Program-made: the position numbers and the translations under genes
Notes under the pieces: model-generated
What the model was told of the DNA's origin: nothing
The model's database searches: none
What the model saw: the letters and a program-made list of their open reading frames with translations, nothing else
In this document: positions 8,849-28,814 of the stretch, piece by piece
Layout: each line of letters starts with the position of its first letter
How positions within the stretch are numbered: position 1 is the stretch's first letter
From: Eutreptiella sp. 'Long Island Sound 2002'
Taxonomy: Eukaryota > Euglenozoa > Euglenophyceae > Eutreptiales > Eutreptiaceae
Length of the DNA stretch: 64,000 nucleotides
Assembly (NCBI GenBank): GCA_964036045.1
Contig: OZ038384.1
Coordinates: 49,080,843 to 49,144,842, forward strand
Direction: 5' to 3'

Positions 8849-8865
8849 GTACCCCATACCCCATA

Positions 8866-9821
8866 TGCGGTATGGGGTGCTTCACCCATACCCGCTGCCC
8901 AGCCTGTGGCGCTCTTCGCCAGGCCAGATCAGGAATTTTCCTGTTGATGCTACGGCATCTTGATTTCTGTGGGATTTCTGTAAAATACCCCAGAAATCGA
9001 TATTTTACGTCTTTTCTGGACTGGCGACGACAGTCGTCGCCTGCGCGACGCAGCTCCAGATCGAGAATTAAACTCTCGATTTCTAAAGATTTTAGGCAAT
9101 TTTATTATTGTTTTATCGTTTTTAGAAATAAAAGATTATAGCGTGACCTTTTTCACGGCGTTCCGCGAAGGTCCATTTTTGCGAAAAGTAGCGCGTTCAC
9201 GCATTTTTCAAAAAATGCTGAGGCGATTCCAGGAATCGCTCAGACGCCTATGGCGTAGCCCAACAGTGGGCCTTTTCATATGTAGGTTGAATTGGCGCAG
9301 AAACGCGTCGTGTCGGCTACGCGACGCGTTGGGGGGAGACGCGCAAAATGAGTGTTTTTGACTCAAAAATCACTTTATTTCGTTGTTTTCCCCCCAAAAA
9401 CCACTGGTTGGCCCAGTTTTGGCAGGATCTCAGTGGAGATCCTGATGGCGACGCCTCGTAGCCGTCAGATTTTCTGATGGCGGCGACGCCGTCGCCTTCA
9501 TTTCGTCTTCTTTTTTATGCTATTTTATAGTATAGAATTGTTACTTATACATTGTACATGTCAACGCATTTGGTTTGCATATCATTTTACATATACCTTC
9601 TCTTTGTCCATAGACGCCAGATTGTGTCCGCGGACGCTCCCCGTGGGGTGAGCAAGGATTCCAAGACCATTTACGCAACTCCAATGGTATCGAAGTTTGG
9701 AATGGACTTCATGTAGTACTTGGAGAGGTTGGGGTGATGGGTTGAAGGATTTTCAATTTTTCAATTTCAATTTCGATTTTTCTGTGGACGCACGGACATC
9801 ACCCCCACCGAAAATGCTTCA
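8866..9821 (+). repeat. Element E 5' LTR
   Basis: It matches 10664-11052 plus 28236-28800. It ends in CTTCA, the reverse complement of the TGAAG that starts the 3' copy, so the intact LTR would have 5-bp terminal inverted repeats TGAAG/CTTCA. The start of this copy is shortened to TGCGG. AT-rich promoter-like sequence (ACATATACC) lies at about 9589-9597. Confidence 0.75.
9652..9672 (+). promoter_or_regulatory. Element E putative self-primer site in LTR
   Basis: GCAAGGATTC (9652-9661) is followed directly by CAAGACCATTT (9662-9672). The latter is the exact reverse complement of AAATGGTCTTG at 9822-9832, the first 11 nt after the LTR. The same GCAAGGATTC sits in the same relation in element D. 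The matching copy in the 3' LTR is at 28636-28656. Confidence 0.7.
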
Positions 9822-9832
9822 AAATGGTCTTG
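9822..9832 (+). promoter_or_regulatory. Element E primer-binding site (self-complementary type)
   Basis: AAATGGTCTTG begins immediately after the LTR's terminal CTTCA. It pairs over all 11 nt with LTR positions 9662-9672. A tRNA-type site would usually begin TGG directly at the LTR edge, which is not seen here. Confidence 0.7.
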
Positions 9833-10652
9833 CCGCTGTCCGCGTGGTTGACTGGCGGACCTGTCGATGAGCTCCCACAACGTCGAGACCGACGCCTGCT
9901 GCCTGGTTTTCGACAACTCCCGCAGCGCAACAGACTGCAGCCAAAGGTATTGCACTGGCGGAAATACAGTGCAAGAAGGGACGCCTGGGCCAAGACTGGC
10001 CCCCAAGGCAACAGCAGCGACGACGACAGCCCTGGGATTAGCTCCAGGAGCTCCTGCGACGACGACGACGATCCCAGCAGAGGTCTTCAGGAAATCTGGA
10101 CCCTGCAGCAGCTTGACAAGTGGAGTGGATGGCAAATCCCAAGAGCAACGACAGCATGCTGCGCGGAAGGCGCTGCTCGTCCACCAGTAACCAAACCAGG
10201 CGCGTTAATTCGTCGCCTTGGGCAGGAAATGGCCCTAAATTCAGGCTCGGTGGAAGGCCTTGCCTTGGGTTTGACCCTAAATAATTTTTTCCGAATTTAT
10301 TGAATTTTTGATTTCCATGCCCATGGAGAAAAAGGGCCAATATGTGCACCTAAGTGCCATCAGTCAGGGCGGAAGGCCCTGCAGCGCCCCTGGTCTGGTC
10401 ACCAGAGGCTACGAGGAGTGCCAGGGACCAGTGTTGTCGCCTGAGGGGCAATTGCCCTATGAATATTTCAAGATCAAAAAAAAAAAAAAAATTTAATTTT
10501 TTTTACATGTGTGTGGTGCTCCCCCCCATGTAAATTACTCACGAAGCCCCCCCCCCCCCACTGTTCTGATGAATCAGTATTGAAACCAGGACACTGCAGG
10601 GGTCAGAGCGCCTCCTTGGCCTTGCCTTCCTTTGGATATAGGCAAGGCTTCT
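9833..10652 (+). other. Element E internal region, no transposon protein
   Basis: About 820 bp. Short open frames with Asp runs (CGACGACGAC repeats near 10060) occur but show no Gag, protease, RT or integrase motif. An A15 run at about 10477-10491 and a long C run near 10548-10559 are present. I see nothing that would make this autonomous. Confidence 0.6.
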
Positions 10653-10663
10653 AAGGAGGGGGG
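10653..10663 (+). promoter_or_regulatory. Element E polypurine tract
   Basis: AAGGAGGGGGG directly precedes the 3' LTR start TGAAGCGG. It is identical to the tract of element D at 25277-25287. Confidence 0.85.
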
Positions 10664-11052
10664 TGAAGCGGTATGGGGTGCTTCACCCATACCCGCTGCC
10701 CAGCCTGTGGCGCTCTTCGCCAGGCCAGATCAGGAATTTTCCTGTTGATGCTACGGCATCTTGATTTCTGTGGGATTTCTGTAAAATACCCCAGAAATCG
10801 TCATTTTACGTCTTTTCTGGACTGGCGACGACAGTCGTCGCCTGCGCGACGCAGCTCCAGATCGAGAATTAAACTCTCGATTTCTAAAGATTTTAGGCAA
10901 TTTTATTATTGTTTTATCGTTTTTAGAAATAAAAGATTATAGCGTGACCTCTTTCACGGCGTTCCGCGAAGGTCCATTTTTGCGAAAAGTAGTGCGTTCA
11001 CGCATTTCTCAAAAAATGCTGAGGCGATTCCAGGAATCGCTCAGACGCCTAT
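10664..11052 (+). repeat. Element E 3' LTR, first piece
   Basis: It starts TGAAGCGGTATGGGG and runs to the insertion point of D at CTAT (11049-11052). It continues at 28236. Removing D and one CTAT restores the order seen in the uninterrupted 5' LTR at 9241-9260. Confidence 0.85.
11049..11052 (+). repeat. Target-site duplication of element D, left copy
   Basis: CTAT. The right copy is at 28232-28235. The uninterrupted site is visible in the 5' LTR of E near 9247-9253. Confidence 0.85.
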
Positions 11053-11073
11053 TGAAGCGGTACCCAGAACCCC

Positions 11074-11778
11074 ATGGCCAGGTTACGGCATACAACCGGT
11101 CTCCGGTCCACTAACCCCATGCACGGCGTGTTCTGTGCCGTGAAGCCCCGCATCGGCAACCGATGCACCGCCAGCGGAGATTTGTGTATCAGAACATCAG
11201 GAATCAACAGGGTTTTATTTTCATATTGTTTCCGTCAATTTTTATGCTTCCGTTCCGATACTCACTGTTTTGACTGCTGGCGGTTGGTTCGCGACTTTAC
11301 CGTAACCGCCAGTTTAACTGTTTATAATGGAAATTTCAACGTTATCCGTCACGAAGGCTCCAAAGTCGCCAGGAACTGCATGGATGCTTCCGCAATTTTC
11401 ATAATTAATACTCGCAACCTTAATCCGAATTTTTCAGGATGTCGAAATCGGATTTTCGACTTCGACATCCCCGCACTTGATTTGACCTCCTTCGAGTGGA
11501 CCTACGTGCTTCCCTATGCACGAATCAACTTCCCTTTTATCCTGCCCTCCGTTTGTCTTAAAGATATGGGCAAAATAAAGTTGATTCGTGAGGCCACTTG
11601 TGAAGGTCATATCTCGTGCCGCTTGCGAGTATTGACGATAAGGAAACGTGGGATGTATTCACAATACTCCCGACGTAATTTAGGAAGCTTTATATGCCTT
11701 GCGTTTCCACACATGCGCGCTAGTGTAATGGATCATGGTCAAGAGGGTAGAGTTTGCGTTATAACTCTTTGGCCATGA
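11074..11778 (+). CDS. Unrecognised 234-residue open frame inside the U3 of element D
   Basis: It starts at an ATG 21 nt into the LTR and is repeated at 25309-26013 in the other LTR with one silent difference. The product is Cys-rich and basic with no domain I recognise, no signal peptide and no membrane helix. The frame is longer than expected by chance in such sequence. However, there is no transcript evidence, and its codon choice does not obviously look coding. It could be an accidental open stretch in regulatory DNA. Confidence 0.25.
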   Translation: MARLRHTTGLRSTNPMHGVFCAVKPRIGNRCTASGDLCIRTSGINRVLFSYCFRQFLCFRSDTHCFDCWRLVRDFTVTASLTVYNGNFNVIRHEGSKVARNCMDASAIFIINTRNLNPNFSGCRNRIFDFDIPALDLTSFEWTYVLPYARINFPFILPSVCLKDMGKIKLIREATCEGHISCRLRVLTIRKRGMYSQYSRRNLGSFICLAFPHMRASVMDHGQEGRVCVITLWP

Positions 11779-13835
11779 CATTGCGTGCGTTAAGATAACT
11801 TTCGAGTGTAGCGCGCAAGTGTTGGTGTTGCATAGGAACTCTCCTTGAGTTCCTATGAGCGATTGACACAAAGTTATGCCCTTGGAGGGGCATGACATAT
11901 CGTGGTGGGAGCTACATTTTTGGGCAATATTTGGTATGTGCCATGTGTTGTGTTGCGTGCCCATTTGGCGGGCCCATTGCTCCAAGACAAGCCCGCCAAT
12001 GGACCTCATATTGTGCAAGCCCCTTCTCCGTACTCCCTACGGTCAATTGCAAGCCTAACCTTCGTGAAGGGAAGCTTGTGTGGTGATCCCGAAGCGATGC
12101 GTTGGGAGCAAGGTGTGTATTTTACATTTTTCCATATTTTCATGTGCCCACTTGGGAAGCAGCGCTCGTAACCTTTCAAGGCGCCCCAAGTGGAGCACAT
12201 ACGTGGGATCGAAGGTCATTGGTGTCAGGTCATTGTGTTTAGAATGTTTAAGTGATTGCACGATCCAAGCCAAAGATATTATAATATAATTATGCGCCTT
12301 TCAAGGCACTTTGGTTTGTCTTTGTGCCAATTTTGCCATTTTTGGCCCGTCATGATGTCAAGTGGCGACCGTGTATTTCAACGTTGCGCTCAATTGACAT
12401 CATGACCCAAGTATGATATGAGGGTACATACTTCGGTGCCCAACATATCTTGGACCCGGCGAATAGCACCTCTTAGGCTTGGCATACCGTGGCCGCCATG
12501 TTGGCGATTTGGGACTATCCCAAATCATGGGCTCACTTGGCGACCCTGCCATTCCCAATACCGGAGGAGTTGGGCGACGCCCCAAAGATATGTTGGACAC
12601 ATATGACTTGACATCAATCCTATGGCACACTCCGGTCCAAGTCGGGCACGTGCCTCATTTGCCCTAACCATGAGCGTGCGCAATTTTGGCCATTTTGAGC
12701 AATTTTCCACTTTTGCTGCCCGCCGTGCCCCATGTTCTGACCTTCGTGCACGCCGGACGCATGGACCAATGGACCATATATGACATGGGTGTTATGGGTA
12801 ATGGTCCCCATGGTCCACACACCACGTGGGCGAAGCGGAGCCGCCTTCGTCAAGGCGCTAGGCCAAATTGAGTATGGGCAATTTTGCCATTTTTGCATTT
12901 GTGGACCCAATTGGGATCGTCACCACGCCGAGTGGCATGGAGATCTTTGAGAGCCAAGTGCATGGGAGTCTCTGTTGGACTCCCGGTGGATCACGTATGG
13001 AATGCCGGATCCGATCTCCAAGCCGGCGTGGAGATATACTATTGGGAGCACACTGAATTTTGGCTCATTTCAAGCAGCCAAAATGACCCAATTTTGGGAC
13101 CCCAATTTCCCCCTTCCGTGTGGTCAATTGGCGGCCCCATTTCTCTAAGCCCATAGGGAGCCCGGACCTAAATCTAAGTTGTACACTCAGATATAAGTCC
13201 TAGGTCCTGCCTCCTACCCTGTGAGCCATTGGCCTTACCTTGGCCGGGCGAGCCGCACGTGGGAATGACACCAATCTTGGTGATTTTGGCATCATGACCC
13301 CACATGACTCATCCGTGTTGCCCTGATGCCGGGACCTCAGAGGGAACCAGGTTGGGTGAGGGCTCCAGGGAGTTCGTACTCGAGGGGCATAGGGTCAGTT
13401 GCCTCGTCCCTACCTCTGGCGGGTCCGGACGAGGGGTCAATTTTGGAGTTTTTCAAGCTAATTTCAGTTTGGGCTGAAACAGCCCATTTTCAGCTACCAA
13501 CTCCTGGGTGATAATGGCGGGGCCATATCTCTGGCTCAGAGAGGAGTTGGGACCTGCCGCTAAGGGAGCATAGGGAGCCACTGTCGGTTGGCCTTGGAGC
13601 CCCTTGGTTCCCAGGAACTCGCCTGTGGCTGTGCGGGACACCTCTCCCATTGGCAGGGTTTCAGGGTCCGGACTGAGCAGGGCATGGGTTGTGTTTGAGC
13701 CCCCGCCCCCATCAGCCACTGAGAGGGTCGGACCTGGGATTGGGATATGAGTCGGGACTGAGTGTCTATTGTCCCTTGATGCCCTTACCCCAGTCCAGTC
13801 TTAACCCCATGTGTACATATCCTGATGTGTTGCTG

Positions 13836-13841
13836 TATATA
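13836..13841 (+). promoter_or_regulatory. TATA box of element D
   Basis: TATATA lies 40 nt upstream of the proposed 5' end of the transcript (13876), followed by a pyrimidine-rich stretch. The same motif is at the equivalent place in the 3' LTR. Confidence 0.5.
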
Positions 13842-13865
13842 CTTTCGTTCCCTCTTTGCAGAGTG

Positions 13866-13886
13866 GCAAGGATTCTGAAACGCTTT
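13866..13886 (+). promoter_or_regulatory. Element D putative self-primer site in LTR
   Basis: GCAAGGATTC (13866-13875) is followed by TGAAACGCTTT (13876-13886). The second part is the exact reverse complement of AAAGCGTTTCA at 13997-14007. Copies in the 3' LTR are at 28101-28121. In Tf1 of fission yeast the first 11 nt of the transcript prime reverse transcription by pairing with such a site. Confidence 0.75.
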
Positions 13887-13996
13887 GTCACATGACAACG
13901 CATTGATGCCCTTGTGAGCGTAGTGCTTTGCCTGCCTGCTCACTTGCGTGTGTCCACCGCAGCGTCCCGTGGCCGGCCCCCCACGGGAACGCGTCA

Positions 13997-14007
13997 AAAG
14001 CGTTTCA
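13997..14007 (+). promoter_or_regulatory. Element D primer-binding site (self-complementary type)
   Basis: AAAGCGTTTCA begins on the first base after the LTR's terminal CA. It pairs over 11 nt with 13876-13886 and does not start with TGG as tRNA-primed sites do. Confidence 0.75.
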
Positions 14008-14447
14008 CCGCCGCGGGGTTACCCAACCCTCGCGTGCCACTCGGGGCCACCAACCCCGAGCAGCGCGTCGCAGCAGCGCGGCGCAGCTCGCAGCTCGCAG
14101 CGCAGCGCAGCGTCCCGCAGCGCAGCGCAGCGGCTCGCAGCGCCACTCAGCGACAGCGCCGAGTTCGTCACGGAGCCCGCAGCGCCGTCCAGTGCTTCGC
14201 CCTGACCGCGCAGCGCCCGTGGAAGAGGTGCACAGACCAGGACTCCTGCATCAGCCCCATCGGCCGACCCGGAGTCCCAACGGCCGACCAGCAAGGCCGC
14301 GTCAACCACCTCCACAACCACCGGCTGACCAGCACCAGCCGCACTTCCAATCCAGTGCTGCAGCACCCTCCTCAACAACCACAACCAGTTCGTTGAGTTG
14401 AACGAGTGCACATCAAGGACTTCAAGATCATCTACGCCCCCGCTGCC
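14008..14447 (+). other. Element D 5' leader
   Basis: Untranslated leader between the primer site and the gag ATG. It contains a run of CAGCG/GCAGC repeats at about 14055-14150 that may fold strongly and could serve packaging. No gene is seen. Confidence 0.5.
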
Positions 14448-17400
14448 ATGGTGAATTGGCAGGAAGCGGGCAGGACGTGGCCGCGGCCCCACCCCCATGC
14501 AGCACGCCTGCTGCATGGGGTGGTTTGGGACCAGCATTACCGCCACAGCAACCCCCAGTGCGAAGGGGGCATGCCCAGGAGCTTCGAGCTCCGCACGGAC
14601 ATCGCCCCCGACCGCCTGCAGGCCGTGGAGGACTGGCTGCGGGCGGAGGGGTACGAGTACCGCCACCAGCAGAGGCGCTGGAGGGCGTGGACCCGGCCGG
14701 ACAGGCCCGGGGAAGGGCTGCGCCCCGACGGGATTGAGGAGGACGAGGACCCCAACGCCTACCCGTCGGGCGCCTCGATCAACGTCTCCCTGTGGGACGT
14801 GATCGAGAGGAAGTTCCCGGAACCGGGGAACGAGCGCAGGCTGCAGGGCAGCAGCAGCGCGTCTCCGGGGACGGAGAAGCGGTCCGCCGGGGACAGGAAG
14901 AGGGACCGGAGGTGGCGGGAGTACCAGGAGTCCCTGGCTGCCGAAGCCGCCCAAGGCACCAAGGGCGGAACCCCAGCCCCCAGTCCCCAACGGCCCAATG
15001 GTGGACGCCACCCCGGCTCCACCACCCTTGGCGACTACATCCAAGTCGCCAAGCAGACCCAGGCCAAGCCCCGTTCGCTGCTCCTGAAGGCCCGGCAGGC
15101 CTCAGCAGGCCCCAGCAGCGACATCGAGTCGGCCCACCGCGGGAGGACGCCGGCCGACCAGGCCAGCTCCAACAGCAGCGTCGCTCCCGAAAGGGACGTG
15201 GCGCGCGCCTGTGAGCGCGCCTGTGGGGTGCCCTGCAACCGTCGGGTTGCCCGGCAACGGGCCAAGCAGTACAGCGCTGCTGTGGAGGGCGCCGCCGGCA
15301 TCGCCCAGGAGGAAGCTGCGCAGTGGGCGCATGGCATGGCCATCCACACCCAGACCGTGGCGGCCATCGCGGCTGGTCTCACGGCCGTAGCCGCCCACAG
15401 CGCAGCAACTGCCCAGGTCAACGGTGAGTTGGCGGCAGCCGACGAGGAAGCCCGCCTGACGCAGGAGGCCATTGCCTGCAAGGAGGCCGAGGTGAAGGCG
15501 CTGGGGGAGGCGCTTGCCCAAGAGAGGGCAAAGAAGGAGGCGGAGGAAAGGGCCCATGCCGCAGCGACGGCTAAGGCCCAGGAGGACGCCGCCAAGAAGG
15601 AAGCCATCGAAGCCGCGCGACGGAAGGTCGCTGAGGAGAAGGCCAAGACGGAGGCGGAGCTGGCGGCGTTGGAGGCGCAGAAGGCGCAGCTGCTGCAGGC
15701 CCGGGAAGCCGAGGCGGCTCGTGCTCGGGAAGAGGCCGAAGCGCGAGCTGCCGCAGCCACCGCCGCCGCAATGGAGGAGGCAGAGGCCAAACTCCGCCAC
15801 GAGACTCCCCCGGGAGGATCGCGAGTGGAGACCCTTCGAAGGCTTTTCGAAGGGGACGCCTCCTCCAGGATGAAGCTGGATGAGGCGGACACGGGCAGCA
15901 GTGGGAGCGGTAGCACCACCGCCCGTCGACGGAGGAGGGGCAAGGGGAAGACCCCCGAGAGGCCGCGGAGGCCAGCGGGTGGGCACCCCCACGACAGTGA
16001 CCCCTTCTTCACCGCCAGTGACGGGGATGAACGAGGCCGTCGACATCGCCAAGTGGTGGCTTGGACGGGCGAAGGTGGCGGAGACGTCCCCATGGAAGGT
16101 GAGGATGAGGATCCCCCTCCTCCCTACCGGAGCTCCGAGTCCTCCGTGACCGAGACGCCCAGGTGGGGCGACATGGACGAAGATGACGACATGGAGTTCG
16201 GCATCACGCGCCCATCCTCGGACCCACCGAGGCGACCGGGCGGAGACCCACCGGGACCCCCTGGCGGAGGACCTTCAGGACCCCCTGGAGGACGCCCACC
16301 AGGTGGACCCCCTGGAGGGGAACCACCGGGCGGGGGAGGACCCCCTGGACCGGGCGGACCCGGCGGAGGCCCTCCTGGAGGACCCCCTGGGGACCCCGAC
16401 GACCCACCGGGGAACGGCGACCCGGATGCCACCTGGTGGTGGATTGTCTACCTCCGCAGGAGAGTCCAGTTGCTCGAGCTGGAGGTAGACACGGGCAAGA
16501 GCGAGATGGCTCGCATCTCCACGGTCGCCGCGCGCGCGCAGAAGGACCTGGACATCGCCAGAGCCGAGACCAAGTCGCTGACCAACGTCGTCAGCGGCCT
16601 GCAGGAGAGGCTGGATGCGCTGGAAGCCCGTGGGAGAGTCAGCAGCGACCACCCACCCCTGGAGTCAGGCTCGTCGGACGACGACTGGGGACCCGGACCA
16701 GGTCCAGGCAGACCCCACGCCCCCGGCGGAGCCCCCAGGAGTCGCCCCAGCGCCAGTGCCCCCTCTCTCTCCGCCCCCTCTCACCACAGCGCGGGCCGCC
16801 GCAACGAACGCGTGCCGCCCGGCAGTGGCAGTGGGGAATGGCGCGATGAGTGGCTCAGCGCGGACTACCACAACCGCCGTGCCCCACCGCGGACGCCTGT
16901 ACGCCCCCGACGCCCGCCACCAGCCCCGGCGCCAATCCCCAGGGCTGGAGGACGTTATGGTGGACTCAGGGATGAGGTCCCCAGAGGAGACGTGGATTGG
17001 GATGTCGGCGAAGGTGAGGACCTGGACCTGGACCTGGACCTGGAGGAGTTCGACATCAGCCCGCCGCGTGGTGTACGACGGGAGGCCGCTGAACGCAGCA
17101 GCCGGCGCCGTGATGAGGATGCGTACATGGATGCAGTACGGCGTGAACATTTCGGTTCAGCGTACGTGGAGGAACCGCGGCGTAGCCACAGGGATTCCAT
17201 GGAGGAGATGGACGTGGCGGCCGTGGGAGTCCGTGGGCGAGGCCGATGGGAACCTCGGTCGACCTCGCGGCCGGCGTTCATGGTCTCTAAGGCCGCGGAC
17301 GCCGCCGTGTGGGAAGACTTGAAGGACATCAAGCCCCCCATGTACGACGGCAACCCCCTCAACCTCGACCGCTTCTTGGAGAAGCTGGACGATTGGGGGC

Positions 17401-18770
17401 TGGCCGTCACTGAAGACCAACCTCCCGCGGATGCGGAGAGATATGTCTTCAAACGGTTCAGGTACCGCCTGCCGGAAGTGCTCGGCGAGCTATACTTCGT
17501 GGCGACCAAGGAGGGGAAAATCAAGACCCTCAAGGACGCCAAGAAGTGGCTCAACGAGCAGGAGCGGGTGGACGCTCCGCAGGTGGCTGCCAAGCGCTGG
17601 AAGTCCATCAAGCTTGAGCATGATGGACGGGAGATCCGCCTACGGGAATGGCGTGACTTCCGAGGGAAATACACCCTCTTCCGCCGCAACGTGGAGGATT
17701 GGAACGAGGGTGACGAGCAGGCTCGCCTGCTCTCCATGCTACCGGAAGCATGGATCAAGAGGGTCACCAAGGAGGAATCCAAGAGGGCCAAGTCCAACCA
17801 CACGGTCAAGATGATGCTCCCCAAGGAGTATCATACGAACGTAGTGAGTTGGGCGAAGAAGAACGTGGCCCGGGATGTCAAACGGCACTCCCTTCGGAAC
17901 GCTCTTCTCATCACCGTCTCGGGCGATCGCGAGAAGACCGCGATTTGGCGCCTTGACGACTGTGAGTTGAGCGGCCAGACCATCCGTCTGCAGCCCATCC
18001 CGGCGCGGATGAGCTGCGACGAGATCCTGGAGTGGGTTGGCGAGGAAGTACTCAAGGAGTACCGAAACCTCCACCACACCCGCGGGTTGAGGCCCGGCGA
18101 CCGCGACGTCAACTACGTTGGCGAGGGGCCTGGCGGGGAATCTGCCATGGACCCAGCGGGAGCCGGCGGCGATGAGACTCTCGTCGACGATGACGACGAC
18201 GATGAGCCCGCCGAAATGGCCGTGTGTGCCTTCGTGGCCAAGAACCTGAGCGCGGGGACCAAGCCAGCAAACTGGAAGCCCCTGCAGCCAGGTTGGAAGA
18301 AGCAGGAGAAGAGGGACCCTCGCCGTATTGGCGACCCTCCGCTGTCCTTTGGGGAGTTCGTACGAGCTCACCCGCAGGGCTGTTTCGTGTGTTATGGGAG
18401 GAAGAAAGGCTTCAACCATGACCACCGAACATGCCCCGTCCACAAGGCCGACACGGAGGCTTACAAGAAGGCGCACGGGTCGAAGAAGCGTGCGCCCGCG
18501 GGTATCCGGGAAACCAAGATGGAGGTGGACAAGGACGAGCTGGCCAAGCTGATGTCGTCGGTGGGAACCGAGTTGGCCAAGGAGATCCAGGAGATCAAGC
18601 GGAACTGGGTCCCCAGGTCGGACAACAAGAACAAGGAGAACAACCAGAATGACCAGAACAAGGACAAGGACAAGAAGGGTAAAGGAGGAGGTAAAGGGGG
18701 AAGGAAGAAAGGCGTCAACGACGTTGAGGCCGAGGAGAACACCCCCTCTTCCACAACCGACGCCCCCTAG
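14448..18770 (+). CDS. Element D Gag, 1440 residues
   Basis: The structural protein that forms the retrotransposon particle. It starts at the first in-frame ATG (MVNWQEAG). About residues 288-454 form an Ala/Glu/Lys-rich coiled coil. Residues about 592-660 are Pro/Gly-rich with PPGG repeats. Residues about 663-727 form a second coiled coil. Residues about 947-1127 resemble the Ty3/gypsy retrotransposon gag (capsid) region. A zinc knuckle at residues 1312-1329 has C1312, C1315, H1324 and C1329. Its CX2CX8HX4C spacing is wider than the usual CX2CX4HX4C. The tail is Lys/Gly/Asn-rich and presumably binds RNA. The protein is far larger than a typical Gag (300-600 residues). Long frames on the minus strand here are shadows caused by high GC. 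The stop is TAG with pol continuing in the same frame. Confidence 0.85.
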   Translation: MVNWQEAGRTWPRPHPHAARLLHGVVWDQHYRHSNPQCEGGMPRSFELRTDIAPDRLQAVEDWLRAEGYEYRHQQRRWRAWTRPDRPGEGLRPDGIEEDEDPNAYPSGASINVSLWDVIERKFPEPGNERRLQGSSSASPGTEKRSAGDRKRDRRWREYQESLAAEAAQGTKGGTPAPSPQRPNGGRHPGSTTLGDYIQVAKQTQAKPRSLLLKARQASAGPSSDIESAHRGRTPADQASSNSSVAPERDVARACERACGVPCNRRVARQRAKQYSAAVEGAAGIAQEEAAQWAHGMAIHTQTVAAIAAGLTAVAAHSAATAQVNGELAAADEEARLTQEAIACKEAEVKALGEALAQERAKKEAEERAHAAATAKAQEDAAKKEAIEAARRKVAEEKAKTEAELAALEAQKAQLLQAREAEAARAREEAEARAAAATAAAMEEAEAKLRHETPPGGSRVETLRRLFEGDASSRMKLDEADTGSSGSGSTTARRRRRGKGKTPERPRRPAGGHPHDSDPFFTASDGDERGRRHRQVVAWTGEGGGDVPMEGEDEDPPPPYRSSESSVTETPRWGDMDEDDDMEFGITRPSSDPPRRPGGDPPGPPGGGPSGPPGGRPPGGPPGGEPPGGGGPPGPGGPGGGPPGGPPGDPDDPPGNGDPDATWWWIVYLRRRVQLLELEVDTGKSEMARISTVAARAQKDLDIARAETKSLTNVVSGLQERLDALEARGRVSSDHPPLESGSSDDDWGPGPGPGRPHAPGGAPRSRPSASAPSLSAPSHHSAGRRNERVPPGSGSGEWRDEWLSADYHNRRAPPRTPVRPRRPPPAPAPIPRAGGRYGGLRDEVPRGDVDWDVGEGEDLDLDLDLEEFDISPPRGVRREAAERSSRRRDEDAYMDAVRREHFGSAYVEEPRRSHRDSMEEMDVAAVGVRGRGRWEPRSTSRPAFMVSKAADAAVWEDLKDIKPPMYDGNPLNLDRFLEKLDDWGLAVTEDQPPADAERYVFKRFRYRLPEVLGELYFVATKEGKIKTLKDAKKWLNEQERVDAPQVAAKRWKSIKLEHDGREIRLREWRDFRGKYTLFRRNVEDWNEGDEQARLLSMLPEAWIKRVTKEESKRAKSNHTVKMMLPKEYHTNVVSWAKKNVARDVKRHSLRNALLITVSGDREKTAIWRLDDCELSGQTIRLQPIPARMSCDEILEWVGEEVLKEYRNLHHTRGLRPGDRDVNYVGEGPGGESAMDPAGAGGDETLVDDDDDDEPAEMAVCAFVAKNLSAGTKPANWKPLQPGWKKQEKRDPRRIGDPPLSFGEFVRAHPQGCFVCYGRKKGFNHDHRTCPVHKADTEAYKKAHGSKKRAPAGIRETKMEVDKDELAKLMSSVGTELAKEIQEIKRNWVPRSDNKNKENNQNDQNKDKDKKGKGGGKGGRKKGVNDVEAEENTPSSTTDAP
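18768..18770 (+). promoter_or_regulatory. Gag-pol boundary stop codon, likely read through (element D)
   Basis: TAG followed by CGG. The frame stays open from here to 23790, and pol has no early ATG (the frame's first usable start before protease would be a GTG). The simplest reading is a Gag-Pol fusion made by stop-codon suppression. Confidence 0.65.
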
Positions 18771-21700
18771 CGGAGCCCCTGCAGCCAAGGGCCCCAGCTA
18801 GGGCGGTCGCAGGATGGTGACGTGGGAAGCGCCGATCCATCCCGGTCGGGAGTCTATAAGCACAAGGGGACTGCCGCGGGCGGAAGGCCCGGTCCGGCGC
18901 CCAGTCGCGGAGGCGGGGTGAGGGCAAGTGAAGGCACGAACCCTTGCACCCGTCCGTCCTTCGCGACCAAGAACGTGTTTGATGTACTACAGGATCTATC
19001 CGAGAGTATCGGAGGATCACCCGGACCGCAGCTGGATGCTGCAGATGGGCAGCCTGAGCCCATTGTCCACGACCTGCACCAGTCGCTTGTGGAGCTTCTG
19101 GAACGGCCGGAGATCCTGAGTTTGCACGCCGTGCGCCGTGTCGGTCGCGAGCGGCAGTTGCATCTTAAGGTCCGTGCCTTATGCGGGGAGGTGGAAAAGG
19201 TATTCGACGTGTTGGTCGACACGGGAGCTCAAGTCAGCTTGGTCAAGGCTGGCCTGCTTCCGCCAGAGTGTCTTACCAACAGTCGGAAACCTGTCAGGCT
19301 GAAGGTGGCGAACGGCCAGTACATGGTGGGAGGCACGAAGGAAGCGGCCATTGGGCTGCAGTTCGTGAACCATCGTGAGCTGAGCCGCCCAGACCTCGGC
19401 AAGGAAATCCTCCTGCACGGTAGCTTCTACGAGGCCGAGATGGACTGGGACATGATCGTCGGGTACGACTTCATGATGGAGACGGACTCCGGCGTCCTCC
19501 CGGCCCAGGCCTCCATGACCCTGTACCAGGACGACCAGCTCTCGTGGCTTTCGTCACCTGAGCACCATGTGGAATGCCAATGGATCCACCCCGAACGCAA
19601 TCAGCTCGAAGTGGCCGCGCTGGACACTGAGCCCACTGGGCCAGCGAACCAGGAGTACGGCGTAAGGCCGGAAGTGGCGCACCGAGTGGTCGCGGACCTG
19701 GGAGCGTCGGATCTGGCCCTGGATGCGTTCTCTTCAGGAACCTCCGCCCATCTGCGGGTATGTGAGAAGTACTGGAGCGCCCAGGACTCCGCGTGGAAGA
19801 AGCACTGGGGTCCGCATCAGGGATTGATGTGGATCCATTGCCCCCGTTGGGACATTCCAAGAGCGATAGCGAAGATTCGCAAGGACCGCTCCAAGGCAGT
19901 GCTGGTTGTTCCTATGGGATGCACCGAGGAGGAAAGTACCCGACATTGGGTAGCCTCATTGACCAACATGACCTTGAACAAGGTCGTCCTACCGGCTGGA
20001 GAGAGTGTCTATCAGGACGCTAAGGGACAGCCCATGCCACCCCAGAGATGGCCAACAGAATTCCACTATGTGGATGGGGGCCTTGATCAGGCCGACACCA
20101 CGGACTTCGTGTGTGTCAACCGCATCATAGCAGAGCCATGGCGGCAATGCTTTGCGGTTCCCCCTGTTGACATCGAAGAATCGGACTCCGAAGACCCCCT
20201 CACTGAAGAGGAGTGGGATCTGGTTCAGGGGTATATGGATCAGCCCTTTCACGACTGGGGAAACCAGCGTGAGGGCAAAGGCCAGGACAAAGCCTGGTGG
20301 GAAGTGGACTCAATCGTCTCTGGTTCCTATGACGGGAATACCTTCGTGCAGAGGGTGCTGGATCACATGTCCAGCCAAGACGAGCCGCCTGGCGGTAACC
20401 CACCCACCTACGGCGATCTGTTCCGAGGCAAGACCAGAGATGGCCCTTTGGGCCACCTGGGAAGACCACCTGAGCCGAAAGCGAGCGGGGTCGCTACCCC
20501 TCAAGTAAGCTCCGTGGTTCAAGTGCCCGGAAAAGCCAAGGCGGAGTCCGATGACTGCCCCAAGATCAAGGCGTTGAGGGCCAGGCTGAAGCAGAAGTAT
20601 GGTGATACCTTCTTCAGCGGTAAGCCTGTGTTTCCCCCACCGGTGCGTGGACCGTATGGCGAGGCCAAGATACGACTGAAGCAGGACCCCCGTGTGTATC
20701 GTCACCGGGAGTTTGCCCTGAGGGGCGAGAGGAAAGAGGCCATGGAGAAGATCCTCCGTGACTTCATCCAGAGAGGCTGGCTTGAGCCGTGCCACTCCGA
20801 GTGGGCCTCTCCCTGCTTCGTCGTCCCCAAGAAGGTTGCCGGTGAGTGGCGGCTCGTGGTCGACTACCGCGGCCTGAACGCCCAAACGCAGCACGACAGC
20901 TATACGCTGCCCCTCATTGAGGATATGCTGCAAAAGCAACACCGGCGGAGGATCTTCACGGTGATTGACCTGAAACATGGTTATCATCAGATGCCTCTCG
21001 CCGAGGAGTCCCGTGCCTGCACAGCCATGAGCACCCCACTTGGACCTCTCCAGTGGAAGGTGATGCCTATGGGCGTTACCAACGGCAATGCGGCTTTTCA
21101 GCGGATGCTGGAGAACCTGCTTGAGCCGGTGCGCGACTGTGCGGACCCCTTCGTGGACGACGTGATCATCGCGTCCGGGGACCCCAGCATGAGCTACGAG
21201 GAGCTCCTGGAGGCACACGAGAGGGACGTCACTCGAGTGCTGGACCTTCTGGTTCGGCACAAACTCACGGGCAGCAGTGACAAGGCCACCATTGCGGTAA
21301 GCGAGGTGGTCTTCGCTGGCCACGTAGTTGGGAACGGGCAGCGAAAGCCCATACCTGGCAAGGTGGCCGCGATTGAGCACTGGGAAAAGCCCAAAACGGT
21401 CTCTGAGCTACGGGCGTATCTGGGGTTCTGCAACTACTACTCGGGGTATATCAAGATGTATGCCGAGTATGCAGCCCCCATGACGACCATGCTCAAGGGC
21501 AACCGAGAGGAGACCAAGAAGGGGTCCAAGAAGGCTCTGGTCTGGACTGAAGAGTCTGACCGTGCCTTTGAGGGGATGAAGCAGGCGCTGCTATCCGCAG
21601 TGGGTCTGCACCTCGTGGATCCCGACCGAGGGTTCGTCCTGCGCACCGACGCTTCCGACTACGCCATTGGCGCTGTGTTGGAGCAAGTGCTTGACGATGG

Positions 21701-23792
21701 GAGGCACGTGCCCGTGGCCTTCTGGAGCCGAGTCCTGGCGGAAGGCCAGAGACGGACGTGGACGCCCCGTGAAAAGGAGGCGTATGCCATCGTCATGGCT
21801 CTCAGGAAATGGGCTGGGTACATAGCCCTCCATCCCGTCACCGTCTGCACCGACCATCAGAGTCTGCAGTCGTGGCACAAGGAGCACGTGGACACCCCCT
21901 CAGGTCCCGCCTCCCGACGGGCAAGATGGCATGAGACCTTGGCCAAGTTCGACCTTACGGTTGTTTATATTCCTGGAAAGGATAACACCGTGGCGGACTG
22001 TCTCAGTAGGTGGGCCTATCCCGCCAGCAAGGGCATGCAGGATATCTCTGCCCATGGCGATGAGGCTGAGACCGCTGAAGCCAAGAGGATCATTGAAATG
22101 GAGCGCCTGATGGAGGAGGAGGATGTTAAATGCTTCGTCGTCATGGCCGCCGATGCCCCCCTCGCATCGAGGGTAAGCAGAGCGGTCAGTGTACTCGCCC
22201 CTGTGGGTGCCGCGGGCGGAAGGCCCGGTCCGGCACCCCCTGTGGGAGTGGAATCCGACAAGCACCTCTTCCCAGAGTCTTGCCTCCAGGACGACTGGAC
22301 CGACGATTACGCCAAGTCTGAGGCCTTTGCGGCCGAGTATAGGGCTGTGACCGACCCTGATGACGGGCAGAAGTGGCCAAAGGGGCTGACTGAGGAAGAT
22401 GGCAAGCTCTACCGGAATGGTAAGCTGCTAGTCCCAGAGTCCCGGGTGCTCGAGCTGTGTGAAGCTTGGCACCACCACATGCTGCACCCAGGGGTCAAGA
22501 AGCAAGCTCTTGACATGCAGCGTCGGTTCGAGATCGACCATATCGTTCTCTACACCGCCATCAAGAAGGTCAGGAAGGGTTGCTCGGTCTGTCAGGCCTG
22601 CAATCCCGACAACCGGAACGTCAAGAAGGAACCCCAATGGACCCCGGTTCCTGACCAGCCCATGGAGAGCGTGGCCATGGACGTCTTCTCCATGCCCGAA
22701 GTGCACATTGGCAAAGAGACCTTTGACTGTGTGGTTCTCTGTGTGGACCGCCACAGCGGCTACGTTGTAGCCGTTCCGGCACGCAAAAAGGGGTTGCTTG
22801 CCAAGGAAGTGGCAGTCATGATGATTCGTCATTGGCTGACCGTCTTTGACATCCCCCGCACCATTTGCAGTGACCGAGGGCCCCAGTTTACTGGTGGCTG
22901 GTTCAAGGCTATGTGTTCCCTCATGGGGATACGTCATGCCAAGAGCGTGGCCTATCTCAGCCGGTCTAACGGCCGTGCTGAAGTGGCTGGAAGGCAGCTG
23001 TTCGAGAAGCTGCGCAAGATCCACATCACCAATCCACGGCGGAACTGGTTCGAGGAGATGTGGCCTGCTCTAAAGGCCCATCATGACACCCCCACTCCGG
23101 GCGGTTTGTCCCCTCACCAGATTCTGTTTGGCAGGGACCCCCTGGGTAGGGGACTTCCCTTGTCTGGTGATGGCATGGCTATGGATGCCAAGGAGTTCTT
23201 CGCGCGGCAAGAGCAAACGGCGCGGGACATCCGCCAGCAGCTTGAGAAGGAGCATGCTGAGCGTCAGAAGTCCGCCCCGAGCTCGACAGCGCAGAAGTTC
23301 AGGGTGGGAGACCCGGTGTGGGTGATCAGACCCCGCCCCATGGGCACCCACCGCACCAAAACCTGGTTCACACCCGGCGAGGTGGTCCGCAGGATTGGTG
23401 AGGACACCTACCGCATCAAGGTGGGTCACGGACAATTCAGGGAGCGCCACGAGAGTCAACTCCGTGTGCGGGAGCCCGACCTCCGTGGCCGGCATGTGTC
23501 CCTGGACTACGCCAAACATGAGGCTGATTCGGACGACGACTATGCTGAGCAGGACGACTATACTGTCGAGAAGATCCTGGCTCAGCGTCCGAAGGCCTCG
23601 GCACCCGGAGGTCTGGAGTTCAAGGTTCGTTGGCGAGGCTATGGGCCGTCCCACGACACCTGGGAACCCGTCTCCTCGTTTGTGCCGCGGGTCAATACTC
23701 CCTTCATGGAGTACATCCGCAAAAACAAGACCAAGATCCACGTTTCGGACTTGGCAGCACTCACCCGGGCGATTGCAGCCAGGGGTGCCTGA
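18771..23792 (+). CDS. Element D Pol: protease-RT-RNase H-integrase-chromodomain
   Basis: Pol copies the element RNA and integrates it. Protease active site DTGA begins at 19218. A spacer domain lies at about 19690-20070. RT has the catalytic FVDD at 21150-21161. RNase H follows with TDASD, EKEAYAIV, TDHQSL and DNTVADCLSR. The integrase has an HHCC finger (HHHMLH then CSVCQAC). Its catalytic core has D in MDVFS, D in SDRGPQF and E in GRAEVAG, with 35 residues between the last two. A GPY/F-like stretch precedes a C-terminal chromodomain (YTVEKIL, then VRWRGYG and TWEPVSSF). The frame is uninterrupted and all catalytic residues I can check are present, so this copy may be functional. Chromodomains direct chromovirus integration to modified chromatin in known cases. 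Confidence 0.9.
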   Translation, partial: RSPCSQGPQLGRSQDGDVGSADPSRSGVYKHKGTAAGGRPGPAPSRGGGVRASEGTNPCTRPSFATKNVFDVLQDLSESIGGSPGPQLDAADGQPEPIVHDLHQSLVELLERPEILSLHAVRRVGRERQLHLKVRALCGEVEKVFDVLVDTGAQVSLVKAGLLPPECLTNSRKPVRLKVANGQYMVGGTKEAAIGLQFVNHRELSRPDLGKEILLHGSFYEAEMDWDMIVGYDFMMETDSGVLPAQASMTLYQDDQLSWLSSPEHHVECQWIHPERNQLEVAALDTEPTGPANQEYGVRPEVAHRVVADLGASDLALDAFSSGTSAHLRVCEKYWSAQDSAWKKHWGPHQGLMWIHCPRWDIPRAIAKIRKDRSKAVLVVPMGCTEEESTRHWVASLTNMTLNKVVLPAGESVYQDAKGQPMPPQRWPTEFHYVDGGLDQADTTDFVCVNRIIAEPWRQCFAVPPVDIEESDSEDPLTEEEWDLVQGYMDQPFHDWGNQREGKGQDKAWWEVDSIVSGSYDGNTFVQRVLDHMSSQDEPPGGNPPTYGDLFRGKTRDGPLGHLGRPPEPKASGVATPQVSSVVQVPGKAKAESDDCPKIKALRARLKQKYGDTFFSGKPVFPPPVRGPYGEAKIRLKQDPRVYRHREFALRGERKEAMEKILRDFIQRGWLEPCHSEWASPCFVVPKKVAGEWRLVVDYRGLNAQTQHDSYTLPLIEDMLQKQHRRRIFTVIDLKHGYHQMPLAEESRACTAMSTPLGPLQWKVMPMGVTNGNAAFQRMLENLLEPVRDCADPFVDDVIIASGDPSMSYEELLEAHERDVTRVLDLLVRHKLTGSSDKATIAVSEVVFAGHVVGNGQRKPIPGKVAAIEHWEKPKTVSELRAYLGFCNYYSGYIKMYAEYAAPMTTMLKGNREETKKGSKKALVWTEESDRAFEGMKQALLSAVGLHLVDPDRGFVLRTDASDYAIGAVLEQVLDDGRHVPVAFWSRVLAEGQRRTWTPREKEAYAIVMALRKWAGYIALHPVTVCTDHQSLQSWHKEHVDTPSGPASRRARWHETLAKFDLTVVYIPGKDNTVADCLSRWAYPASKGMQDISAHGDEAETAEAKRIIEMERLMEEEDVKCFVVMAADAPLASRVSRAVSVLAPVGAAGGRPGPAPPVGVESDKHLFPESCLQDDWTDDYAKSEAFAAEYRAVTDPDDGQKWPKGLTEEDGKLYRNGKLLVPESRVLELCEAWHHHMLHPGVKKQALDMQRRFEIDHIVLYTAIKKVRKGCSVCQACNPDNRNVKKEPQWTPVPDQPMESVAMDVFSMPEVHIGKETFDCVVLCVDRHSGYVVAVPARKKGLLAKEVAVMMIRHWLTVFDIPRTICSDRGPQFTGGWFKAMCSLMGIRHAKSVAYLSRSNGRAEVAGRQLFEKLRKIHITNPRRNWFEEMWPALKAHHDTPTPGGLSPHQILFGRDPLGRGLPLSGDGMAMDAKEFFARQEQTARDIRQQLEKEHAERQKSAPSSTAQKFRVGDPVWVIRPRPMGTHRTKTWFTPGEVVRRIGEDTYRIKVGHGQFRERHESQLRVREPDLRGRHVSLDYAKHEADSDDDYAEQDDYTVEKILAQRPKASAPGGLEFKVRWRGYGPSHDTWEPVSSFVPRVNTPFMEYIRKNKTKIHVSDLAALTRAIAARGA
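19690..20070 (+). other. Spacer domain between protease and RT (element D), methyltransferase-like, degenerate
   Basis: It shows the order LDAFSS, KYWS, a Trp, then IHCPRW, then VLVVPMG and VLPAGESVY. This parallels the domain in A, B and C, where the CPRW position reads NPPF. The missing Asn suggests loss of any methyltransferase activity in D while the fold is kept. Confidence 0.4.
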
Positions 23793-25276
23793 TCAGCGCC
23801 CTGAGCTCTCCCCTGATGTGCCTTGAGGCGCTTGTGAGGCCGACGAACCGTCCCTTACTTGCTTGCTCTCTTCCATCTTTCGGTGACAGAGTGGCCATAT
23901 ACCCCCCCCTGCTGCATCCAGAGGAGGATGGCCCCTCTTTTCTTCTATTCGTCACTCCCCCCCCTGCTGAATCCTTGGGAAACCAGGTAGGGCGACTGAC
24001 CTTCATATTTTTGAGCTCTTGGGGCCTTGAAGCCCATACGACGTTGCGCAACGGATGCCGCTGTCATCGGCATTGCGATTTTTTGGTGTGTGGTCTGGTT
24101 CCATGGCATTTGCGGAATCCAGACCAGTCGACGTGTGTCTCGAGACTATATATGCCTGAACTCAGGCGTTATCCTGTCCATCCTCCTGCATTTGCCTTAT
24201 CCTGACCGTGGCGTGGTTTGGCACTCTGTTCTGAGTGTGTTTACACGCCTATTTGCCCAAGTTGTTGCTTGTTTTTCTGCCCTCCAGGATATGTGCATCT
24301 GTATGTTAAGTGTCATCAGCCCATCGCTGAGGGATGGACTGTTTTTCACCACGAATCGGGATACCGAGGCGCCTTGAGTCGCCGTGTACATATCCTTACA
24401 GCCTGGTCCAGCCTGGACCAGTACTTGATTACAGATTCTGCTGTTTGAGTGCCCGTGATACCGTGTTGCCCTATTCGCTGTGAGGTGTGGAGATCCTGAT
24501 GGCGCCAGGCGGGAAGCCCAGTTGCCTGACTACACTCCCAGCGGTCCGCCACTGTCAGTCCCAGTGTGAGCCTACCGATTTGCAGACGCACTTGCATTCG
24601 GATGGCGGCCTCCGGTGCTCCTGACCTCGGTCAGTCTGCCTGGGAAACTGGTGGTTTGAGGAGTCGACGCCTCCGCCCACACTGCATGAGGACTCCCTCA
24701 TGTATGGCCACGCTTCGTGGTAGTAGGGCGAGGGAAAAGACGGCCTTGATGCCCGATCCCTTCAGGAGGAGTTCCCTTACGATTTGGGGTTCGTAAGGAG
24801 TTCGACTATGGCACTCTGGACTCGCGTCGTATGGATATGGACATGGTGCGCCCGAGGAAGGACCCGTGGGGACTCTCCCCAGTCGGCGGGCCTTGGGAAG
24901 CTTGGGGTAGCCTGATGGATCTTTGTGGTCGCTCTCGACTTGTGGGGCCACCTCGGCCGTCGTGTGACGCCTATGTTGGCCGTGTATGCCACTGCCACTG
25001 TGGTGGTGACCGTAGCAGCCGGCACCCGGTGCGCCTGGTATGGGTTAACGGGTCCTTTGGATGCCGAACAATCGCCGCCAGGACCCGGGACTTGGTACTT
25101 GATACTATACATGTGCTACGAGCTGTTACAGCAGCATACCTATCCCACTGTGGGATACCTATCTTACTGTGACTTACTGAAGCGAGGATGTGACACCCCC
25201 CCCCCCCTTTCAGGAAGTGGTCCTGGGTACCCGCTGCCATGCGTGGGTGTTATCGAGCCCCCCCAGGGTTTGCTCT
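23793..25276 (+). other. Element D 3' untranslated region
   Basis: About 1.5 kb between the pol stop and the polypurine tract, without a convincing gene. A C-run occurs at about 25195-25207. It may contain export or packaging signals, but I cannot point to one. Confidence 0.5.
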
Positions 25277-25287
25277 AAGGAGGGGGG
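25277..25287 (+). promoter_or_regulatory. Element D polypurine tract
   Basis: AAGGAGGGGGG directly before TGAAGCGG of the 3' LTR. It primes plus-strand synthesis in this element class. Confidence 0.9.
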
Positions 25288-28231
25288 TGAAGCGGTACCC
25301 AGAACCCCATGGCCAGGTTACGGCATACAACCGGTCTCCGGTCCACTAACCCCATGCACGGCGTGTTCTGTGCCGTGAAGCCCCGCATCGGCAACCGATG
25401 CACCGCCAGCGGAGATTTGTGTATCAGAACATCAGGAATCAACAGGGTTTTATTTTCATATTGTTTCCGTCAATTTTTATGCTTCCGTTCCGATACTCAC
25501 TGTTTTGACTGCTGGCGGTTGGTTCGCGACTTTACCGTAACCGCCAGTTTAACTGTTTATAATGGAAATTTTAACGTTATCCGTCACGAAGGCTCCAAAG
25601 TCGCCAGGAACTGCATGGATGCTTCCGCAATTTTCATAATTAATACTCGCAACCTTAATCCGAATTTTTCAGGATGTCGAAATCGGATTTTCGACTTCGA
25701 CATCCCCGCACTTGATTTGACCTCCTTCGAGTGGACCTACGTGCTTCCCTATGCACGAATCAACTTCCCTTTTATCCTGCCCTCCGTTTGTCTTAAAGAT
25801 ATGGGCAAAATAAAGTTGATTCGTGAGGCCACTTGTGAAGGTCATATCTCGTGCCGCTTGCGAGTATTGACGATAAGGAAACGTGGGATGTATTCACAAT
25901 ACTCCCGACGTAATTTAGGAAGCTTTATATGCCTTGCGTTTCCACACATGCGCGCTAGTGTAATGGATCATGGTCAAGAGGGTAGAGTTTGCGTTATAAC
26001 TCTTTGGCCATGACATTGCGTGCGTTAAGATAACTTTCGAGTGTAGCGCGCAAGTGTTGGTGTTGCATAGGAACTCTCCTTGAGTTCCTATGAGCGATTG
26101 ACACAAAGTTATGCCCTTGGAGGGGCATGACATATCGTGGTGGGAGCTACATTTTTGGGCAATATTTGGTATGTGCCATGTGTTGTGTTGCGTGCCCATT
26201 TGGCGGGCCCATTGCTCCAAGACAAGCCCGCCAATGGACCTCATATTGTGCAAGCCCCTTCTCCGTACTCCCTACGGTCAATTGCAAGCCTAACCTTCGT
26301 GAAGGGAAGCTTGTGTGGTGATCCCGAAGCGATGCGTTGGGAGCAAGGTGTGTATTTTACATTTTTCCATATTTTCATGTGCCCACTTGGGAAGCAGCGC
26401 TCGTAACCTTTCAAGGCGCCCCAAGTGGAGCACATACGTGGGATCGAAGGTCATTGGTGTCAGGTCATTGTGTTTAGAATGTTTAAGTGATTGCACGATC
26501 CAAGCCAAAGATATTATAATATAATTATGCGCCTTTCAAGGCACTTTGGTTTGTCTTTGTGCCAATTTTGCCATTTTTGGCCCGTCATGATGTCAAGTGG
26601 CGACCGTGTATTTCAACGTTGCGCTCAATTGACATCATGACCCAAGTATGATATGAGGGTACATACTTCGGTGCCCAACATATCTTGGACCCGGCGAATA
26701 GCTCCTCTTAGGCTTGGCATACCGTGGCCGCCATGTTGGCGATTTGGGACTATCCCAAATCATGGGCTCACTTGGCGACCCTGCCATTCCCAATACCGGA
26801 GGAGTTGGGCGACGCCCCAAAGATATGTTGGACACATATGACTTGACATCAATCCTATGGCACACTCCGGTCCAAGTCGGGCACGTGCCTCATTTGCCCT
26901 AACCATGAGCGTGCGCAATTTTGGCCATTTTGAGCAATTTTCCACTTTTGCTGCCCGCCGTGCCCCATGTTCTGACCTTCGTGCACGCCGGACGCATGGA
27001 CCAATGGACCATATATGACATGGGTGTTATGGGTAATGGTCCCCATGGTCCACACACCACGTGGGCGAAGCGGAGCCGCCTTCGTCAAGGCGCTAGGCCA
27101 AATTGAGTATGGGCAATTTTGCCATTTTTGCATTTGTGGACCCAATTGGGATCGTCACCACGCCGAGTGGCATGGAGATCTTTGAGAGCCAAGGGCATGG
27201 GAGTCTCTGTTGGACTCCCGGTGGATCACGGATGGAATGCCGGATCCGATCTCCAAGCCGGCGTGGAGATATACTATTGGGAGCACACTGAATTTTGGCT
27301 CATTTCAAGCAGCCAAAATGACCCAATTTTGGGACCCCAATTTCCCCCTTCCGTGTGGTCAATTGGCGGCCCCATTTCTCTAAGCCCATAGGGAGCCCGG
27401 ACCTAAATCCAGTTTGTACACTCAGATATAAGTCCTAGGTCCTGCCTCCTACCCTGTGAGCCATTGGCCTTACCTTGGCCGGGCGAGCCGCACGTGGGAA
27501 TGACACCAATCTTGGTGATTTTGGCATCATGACCCCACATGACTCATCCGTGTTGCCCTGATGCCGGGACCTCAGAGGGAACCAGGTTGGGTGAGGGCTC
27601 CAGGGAGTTCGTTCTCGAAGGGCATAGGGTCAGTTGCCTCGTCCCTACCTCTGGCGGGTCCGGACGAGGGGTCAATTTTGGAGTTTTTCAAGCTAATTTC
27701 AGTTTGGGCTGAAACAGCCCATTTTCAGCTACCAACTCCTGGGTGATAATGGCGGGGCCATATCTCTGGCTCAGAGAGGAGTTGGGACCTGCCGCTAAGG
27801 GAGCATAGGGAGCCACTGTCGGTTGGCCTTGGAGCCCCTTGGTTCCCAGGAACTCGCCTGTGGCTGTGCGGGACACCTCTCCCATTGGCAGGGTTTCAGG
27901 GTCCGGACTGAGCAGGGCATGGGTTGTGTTTGAGCCCCCGCCCCCATCAGCCACTGAGAGGGTCGGACCTGGGATTGGGATATGAGTCGGGACTGAGTGT
28001 CTATTGTCCCTTGATGCCCTTACCCCAGTCCAGTCTTAACCCCATGTGTACATATCCTGATGTGTTGCTGTATATACTTTCGTTCCCTCTTTGCAGAGTG
28101 GCAAGGATTCTGAAACGCTTTGTCACATGACAACGCATTGATGCCCTTGTGAGCGTAGTGCTTTGCCTGCCTGCTCACTTGCGTGTGTCCACCGCAGCGT
28201 CCCGTGGCCGGCCCCCCACGGGAACGCGTCA
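25288..28231 (+). repeat. Element D 3' LTR
   Basis: 2944 bp, the same length as the 5' LTR with about nine substitutions. It is flanked on the right by CTAT and then the rest of E's 3' LTR. Confidence 0.9.
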
Positions 28232-28235
28232 CTAT
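28232..28235 (+). repeat. Target-site duplication of element D, right copy
   Basis: CTAT, matching 11049-11052. Confidence 0.85.
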
Positions 28236-28800: not shown

Positions 28801-28814
28801 GTATGGGGTACCCC

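Follow-up and report, generated by a model that had tools for sequence, protein, structure and literature searches.

The Tf1 retrotransposon primes its own reverse transcription with an 11-nucleotide (nt) primer. In the accessible text of three papers such self-priming is described in terms of a self-primer, its binding site and a folded 'pretzel', and is spread over fungi, vertebrates and non-seed plants (PMC10085805, PMC4600332, PMC6317226), and the excerpts available of two others report elements in which no self-primer was detected (PMC2864245, PMC5006619). The present analysis concerns a 64-kb stretch of the genome of the euglenid Eutreptiella sp. 'Long Island Sound 2002' (C7:49080843-49144842; hereafter the window), much of which is filled by nested transposons according to self-comparison and boundary reading. 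Two of these, here called D and E, are very probably long terminal repeat (LTR) retrotransposons whose reverse transcription is self-primed in the manner of Tf1.

Complementary 11-nt segments at the LTR ends of D and E

In both elements the first 11 nt past the LTR form a perfect reverse complement to the 11 nt that follow the motif GCAAGGATTC inside the LTR, and both matches are exactly 11 nt long, flush with the LTR end and without extension on either side. The pairs had been proposed in an initial annotation of the window, and coordinates and sequences proved correct for D (13876-13886 with 13997-14007) and for E (9662-9672 with 9822-9832), as did the placement of a copy of GCAAGGATTC directly before each 11-mer. 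The features concerned, all on the plus strand, are:

8867..9821, +, 5' LTR of E, about 955 bp, last bases GCTTCA, placed by self-comparison and with its end backed by the genomic copies L011, L019 and L101
9652..9661, +, motif GCAAGGATTC in the 5' LTR of E
9662..9672, +, proposed self-primer of E, CAAGACCATTT
9822..9832, +, putative primer binding site of E, AAATGGTCTTG
11053..13996, +, 5' LTR of D, 2944 bp
13866..13875, +, motif GCAAGGATTC in the 5' LTR of D
13876..13886, +, proposed self-primer of D, TGAAACGCTTT
13997..14007, +, putative primer binding site of D, AAAGCGTTTCA

The annotation had put a chance match at well under one in a thousand per element; the values obtained are about 6e-4 for D and 9e-5 for E: among 43,890 other 11-mers of the window a reverse complement was found for 26 in the D LTR and for 4 in the E LTR. 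The match turned up in one of 1500 dinucleotide shuffles of the D LTR and in one of 3000 of the E LTR. In three control elements of the window, A, B and C, the longest matches within 3 nt of the flush position measure 7, 8 and 5 nt, respectively. The 11-nt pair is the closing stem of the predicted leader fold in both D and E, with pairing probabilities of at least 0.96 at primer positions 2-9 in both leaders when 0-70 nt of upstream sequence are included; the outermost pair of D is predicted with a lower probability (0.72-0.93), and the predicted pairing of the last pairs adjoining the LTR end drops to 0.44 (D) and 0.83 (E).

In the proposed mechanism, minus-strand DNA synthesis would start from a primer derived from the element's own transcript: a segment near the start of R, the 11 nt behind GCAAGGATTC, would loop back and anneal to the first 11 nt past the LTR. 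The duplex would then be nicked, most likely by the RNase H of the element as in Tf1, so that the reverse transcriptase (RT) could extend a 3' end lying flush with the LTR. D would supply the machinery, and E would be a rider that has the LTR start and polypurine tract of D together with a matched pair of its own. We infer the transcript start, the cleavage, the extension and the copying of E by an autonomous partner. Euglenids add spliced leaders to their mRNAs. If D and E are self-primed and their host does so too, either the genomic RNA would be without a spliced leader or the primer would be internal instead of 5'-terminal, and an internal primer would be a new form of the self-priming mechanism. 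A search for relics of dinoflagellate spliced leaders gave hits at chance level, and a dinoflagellate host was rejected.

Primer and site across genomic copies

The genome surveyed is that of the window itself (2.28 Gb), in which GCAAGGATTC occurs 10,687 times, compared with 570 occurrences of the reversed motif. The sites read one by one were the first 100 in the list of motif matches, every one from contig C1; they comprise 33 D-like sites, 10 sites of the E cluster (8 of E and 2 of a relative), 28 sites at the end of one unrelated repeat, 4 in another repeat and 25 that did not cluster. The pattern TCAAAAN8CCG is present in 15 of the 33 D-like sites, all of which pair 11/11, and in 5 of the 10 E-like sites, four pairing 11/11 and one 10/11 (n=20 combined, 19 at 11/11 and 1 at 10/11), while none of the 57 motif sites outside the two LTR clusters carries it. 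One of the five pattern-bearing E-like sites, L053, has a new pair, CAGAAAACTTT with AAAGTTTTCTG. Of eight inspected LTR sites that lack the pattern, seven have unrelated sequence behind the LTR end, and L102 is interrupted before that end is reached.

Complementarity was not demanded by two patterns applied to the genome, GCAAGGATTC N{76,106} TCAAAAN8CCG and GCAAGGATTC V N{106,135} TCAAAAN8CCG. In both, the site must open with AAA and be followed by CCG, which leaves 8 free bases and the open primer as the basis of the test, and the V of the second excludes primers starting with T, that is, most D copies. The patterns gave 55 and 46 matches, respectively, with no match for either reversed control. 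All 101 matches were read, and 91 are LTR leaders, of which 61 pair 11/11, 25 pair 10/11 and 5 pair 9/11; the remaining 10 lie in other repeats with CCCC after the motif, where one pairs 4/11 and nine, which belong to a single family and hence are not independent, pair 2/11. Unrelated repeats that fit the pattern thus show no pairing. Across 29 distinct LTR primer/site combinations, which include one-base variants and are not independent, the mean is 9.97 pairs, compared with 7.23 when the sites are shuffled, and none of 20,000 shuffles scored as high. A third pattern with N{137,167} gave 270 matches and no control matches, with E-type primers or close variants among the 100 listed; sites of these matches were read for L009, L010, L020 and L103.

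The match is accordingly kept up over many copies and several types, with the 91 LTR leaders at 9-11/11, and primer and site do change together, as the initial annotation had suggested from two elements. For four recurrent primer types the match between the primer and the site of that type is complete (11/11), and one single-base change, CAGAAA/CAGAAT, is compensated from CAGAAAACTTT/AAAGTTTTCTG to CAGAATACTTT/AAAGTATTCTG; the latter two pair in 6/6 copies, whose leaders are otherwise recognisably alike by eye to the CAGAAAACTTT/AAAGTTTTCTG type. Pairing at 10/11 is in many cases confined to a single copy and resembles decay. A near-complete pair is also present in a distant autonomous relative, L119, in which a leader of a fifth type, TATATC (primer TATATCGGTTT, site AAATGGATATA, 9/11), lies upstream of a Pol that is 96.6% identical to P0082 over 1280 amino acids. 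The RT-RNaseH of P0082 is 48% identical to that of D and forms an early branch in the D group, at a fork of modest support.

Several observations weigh against self-priming in D and E or against the covariation taken as its sign. The primer is preceded by a TATA-like stretch at a distance of 40 nt in D and of about 70 nt in E, so that the transcript start may not coincide with the first base of the primer in both. A coarse test of two leaders for the two additional duplexes of a Tf1-type 'pretzel' gave nothing above shuffles (0.29-0.90 of 300 shuffles were as strong). Among the four copies of the TATATC type, two pair 10/11, two pair 9/11 and none pairs fully, and the autonomous copy L119 itself carries two primer/site mismatches. 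The outermost pair is left unpaired in 4/4 copies with CGAAACGCTTT (L148-L151), and L152 has this outer pair compensated, yet shows another mismatch. The motif alone is not diagnostic, as 28 of the 100 listed sites belong to an unrelated repeat. Finally, about 100-160 nt separate the primer from its site, so that part of the joint changes may reflect replacement of a single block, and block swapping can mimic covariation. The LTR of L053 is 90.5% identical to that of E over E residues 165-762 and has a different primer/site pair, and the array L120 contains stretches 74-78% identical to the E LTR, yet has the TATATC pair; judged by these sequences, leaders also appear to move as blocks.

Priming of the post-LTR site by a host tRNA or tRNA fragment, with the LTR complement merely sequestering the site until particles form, is very unlikely. 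The initial annotation had noted that neither site starts with TGG; this stands for D, where TGG is absent from the first 14 nt past the LTR, but E has one three bases into its site (9825-9827), as a tRNA-primed element might. Elements A, B and C moreover carry post-LTR sites of the GGT(A/T)GCA type, which presumably resemble the 3' end of initiator tRNA. In D and E and their relatives, however, the site differs among families and tracks the 11-mer of the LTR, so that one tRNA cannot fit all of them, and the complement of the E site, read as a tRNA 3' end, lacks C61, which as a rule is invariant in tRNAs. Priming by tRNA was rejected on the tracking of the LTR 11-mer by the sites and the missing TGG of D, the host tRNA set not being part of the comparison.

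We likewise give little credence to the idea that the 11-nt pairs are maintained as a leader hairpin with a role in packaging, dimerisation or translation control while something else primes: the pair does close the predicted leader fold of D and E, but a plain stem needs no base-exact flushness with the LTR end, in the same register, in each type. That a chance match arose once and seems conserved since the copies are young is scarcely credible. The D LTRs are indeed 99.7% identical and the primer hardly varies within the D-like cluster, but several unrelated or diverged primer types, each matching its own site, and the compensated change are at odds with copying, and the pairing across families already contradicts it. 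Low variability of the primer in the D-like cluster was also considered as evidence of purifying selection and rejected, since many other stretches vary as little (62/428 windows were as low, in a count that left out the incomplete locus L058).

Anatomy of the nested elements and neighbouring features

D is a chromodomain Gypsy-type LTR retrotransposon of 17.2 kb that is inserted into the 3' LTR of E, and E is a short LTR element without a pol-sized frame. The boundary of D is proven by its LTR pair (11053-13996 / 25288-28231; 2944 bp each, 9 differences) together with a 4-bp target duplication, CTAT, inside E. The end of E is not provable within the window, as its 3' LTR is without the last CTTCA; in the genomic copies L011, L019 and L101 unrelated flank comes after a terminal GCTTCA, which supports the end of the 5' LTR. 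The self-matches of the E LTR are 8867-9251 = 10668-11052 and 9248-9816 = 28232-28800. The remaining features are:

9822..10663, +, interior of E, short; the longest listed frame touching it has 185 amino acids
10650..10663, +, polypurine tract and flank of E, TCTAAGGAGGGGGG, the same in D
10664..11052, +, first part of the 3' LTR of E; its final 4 bases, CTAT, are the D target duplication
13997-25287, +, interior of D
14397..18770, +, open frame 1 of D, 1457 codons, in the Gag position, without a Pfam match and closed by an in-frame stop
18771..23792, +, Pol frame of D, in the same reading frame as frame 1, with Pfam RT, RNase H, chromodomain and integrase core
25274..25287, +, polypurine tract and flank of D
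25288..28231, +, 3' LTR of D
28101..28121, +, copy of motif and primer in the 3' LTR of D
28232..28800, +, remainder of the 3' LTR of E on the 3' side of D; opens with the second CTAT, outer CTTCA missing
28636..28656, +, copy of motif and primer in the 3' LTR of E

In the Pol of D, RT, RNase H and the chromodomain (PF00385, 35.8 bits, located after the integrase) score above the Pfam cut-off, and the integrase core reaches 29.3 bits with a cut-off of 32.6; no Dam or DNMT match was found by Pfam in D's own Pol. D and E had been regarded as related elements, which is true of the shared motif and of the 24 nt across polypurine tract and LTR start that are common to both (TCTAAGGAGGGGGG followed directly by TGAAGCGGTA) but does not extend to the LTRs as a whole, between which there is no blastn match at E 1e-3.

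The outer ends of E are short (8840-8870, 28795-28815), the 5' LTR being without TGAA and the 3' LTR without CTTCA, and the flanks contain inverted copies of GGTATGGGGTACC. In L042, GCAAGGATTC stands directly 5' of an E-like polypurine-tract region, TAAGGAGGGGGGTGAAGCGG, much as E has GCAAGGCTTC at 10642-10651. L120, on the minus strand, is an array that repeats about every 1500 bp and contains TATATC leaders and junctions of polypurine tract and TGAAGCGGTA; none of six test proteins, of which five were Pol relatives and one the D frame in the Gag position, matched it in tblastn.

Elements A, B and C (28815-40022, 41580-63877 and 50888-62253, respectively) have LTRs that begin with AGTAAG and do not end in CA, and the RT-RNaseH of A and C, which the comparison covers, is 27% identical to that of D. 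Elsewhere in the window there is a long array of a 21-bp repeat that is open in more than one frame (3362-4668), a minus-strand frame with a MULE transposase match (6755-8599) and a 53-bp tandem repeat that is the same in 8427-8938 and 39972-40825 and each time adjoins an LTR element. Scans of the window with Rfam and for tRNAs gave no matches.

In the genome survey the motif alone was tried as a marker and rejected, because of the 28 sites at one unrelated repeat end and the 4 in another repeat. The former, represented by L012 and 27 loci like it (motif at base 601), mostly ends in ..GCGCAGTGCAAGGATTCCCC before unique flank and is possibly the end of a DNA transposon. The genome also has 52 small contigs (e.g. 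C57, C78, C116) with a COX1 match of identical score, 347.6 bits, which by score alone might be a fragmented mitochondrial genome. The best PDB match of the COX1, with 684 bits against 423 for the runner-up, is 8iuf/8iuj, the respiratory supercomplex of Euglena gracilis; the alignment is long and clearly short of identity, which makes a euglenid different from E. gracilis the likely host. In an AT-rich locus, L159 (G000:C42:17856-19199; 29% GC), there is a second COX1, which has to be read with TGA as tryptophan; it is from a different mitochondrion, perhaps that of a contaminant.

Relatives and comparison with known systems

In a tree of RT-RNaseH the D group comprises 17 rows with a support of 100/100 and is separate from Ty3 and from the chromoviruses of Haematococcus, Closterium and others (97/96). 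The tree is unrooted and built from RT-RNaseH only, P0148 was removed by a length filter, and Ty3, a pararetrovirus row, A and C form long branches. We infer that the D group lies outside Tf1/sushi, from a tree without Tf1/sushi sequences. A Dam (PF05869) or DNA methylase (PF00145) domain is present in some relatives of D. Searches of viral contigs with Pol, by alignment and with the polypurine-tract pattern gave nothing of use, nor did a search of genome contigs, and tblastn returned three distant records in plasmids and none in phages. In open-access searches, none naming euglenids, the text reached mentioned no alga or protist with a self-primed chromovirus.

A wider reading, which we regard as possible yet tentative, is that self-priming is ancestral in a chromodomain Gypsy group outside Tf1/sushi, in euglenids, and that the leader (motif, primer, U5 and site) acts as an exchangeable key, so that riders without pol could keep one U3, swap leaders and switch autonomous partners. 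It is not rated higher because no TATATC copy pairs fully. Self-priming has so far been linked to one lineage of copia and to the chromoviruses of the Tf1/sushi group. One genome that holds a separate Gypsy group in many copies, with several matched pairs and a base change that is compensated, would amount to a natural mutational scan of primer selection, and bears on the question of a repeated origin of self-priming and on the choice of partner by riders.

Among known systems, D resembles the Tf1/sushi chromoviruses, including Tj1 and the plant Tcn1 lineage, which in the accessible text likewise have an LTR-derived primer complementary to the post-LTR site (PMC10085805, PMC4600332). The likeness extends to the chromodomain in Pol and, for Tj1 as described in the same excerpts, to an in-frame stop between Gag and Pol (PMC10085805, PMC4600332). 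It differs from them in that its RT-RNaseH falls in a separate group of a tree that holds no Tf1/sushi sequences, in its 2.9-kb LTRs, in the Dam/DNMT domains of some relatives and in its euglenid host. The algal KnitGypsy-Dnmt3 elements are Gypsy elements with methyltransferase domains and share this trait with those relatives of D that have Dam or DNA methylase domains, whereas the Pol of D has no Dam/DNMT match and self-priming is not mentioned in the available part of their description (PMC5890265). Self-primers are likewise predicted for the TAR lineage of Ty1/copia (Houba, Osr-1), according to the accessible text (PMC6317226), but these are copia elements, whereas D belongs to Gypsy. E, in turn, is similar to the non-autonomous TRIM and LARD elements in having LTRs and a short interior without a pol-sized frame, and is set apart from them by its own matched self-primer pair and by a related LTR that bears a different pair. 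Taken together, these likenesses and differences place D with the self-priming mechanism and not with the Tf1/sushi family.

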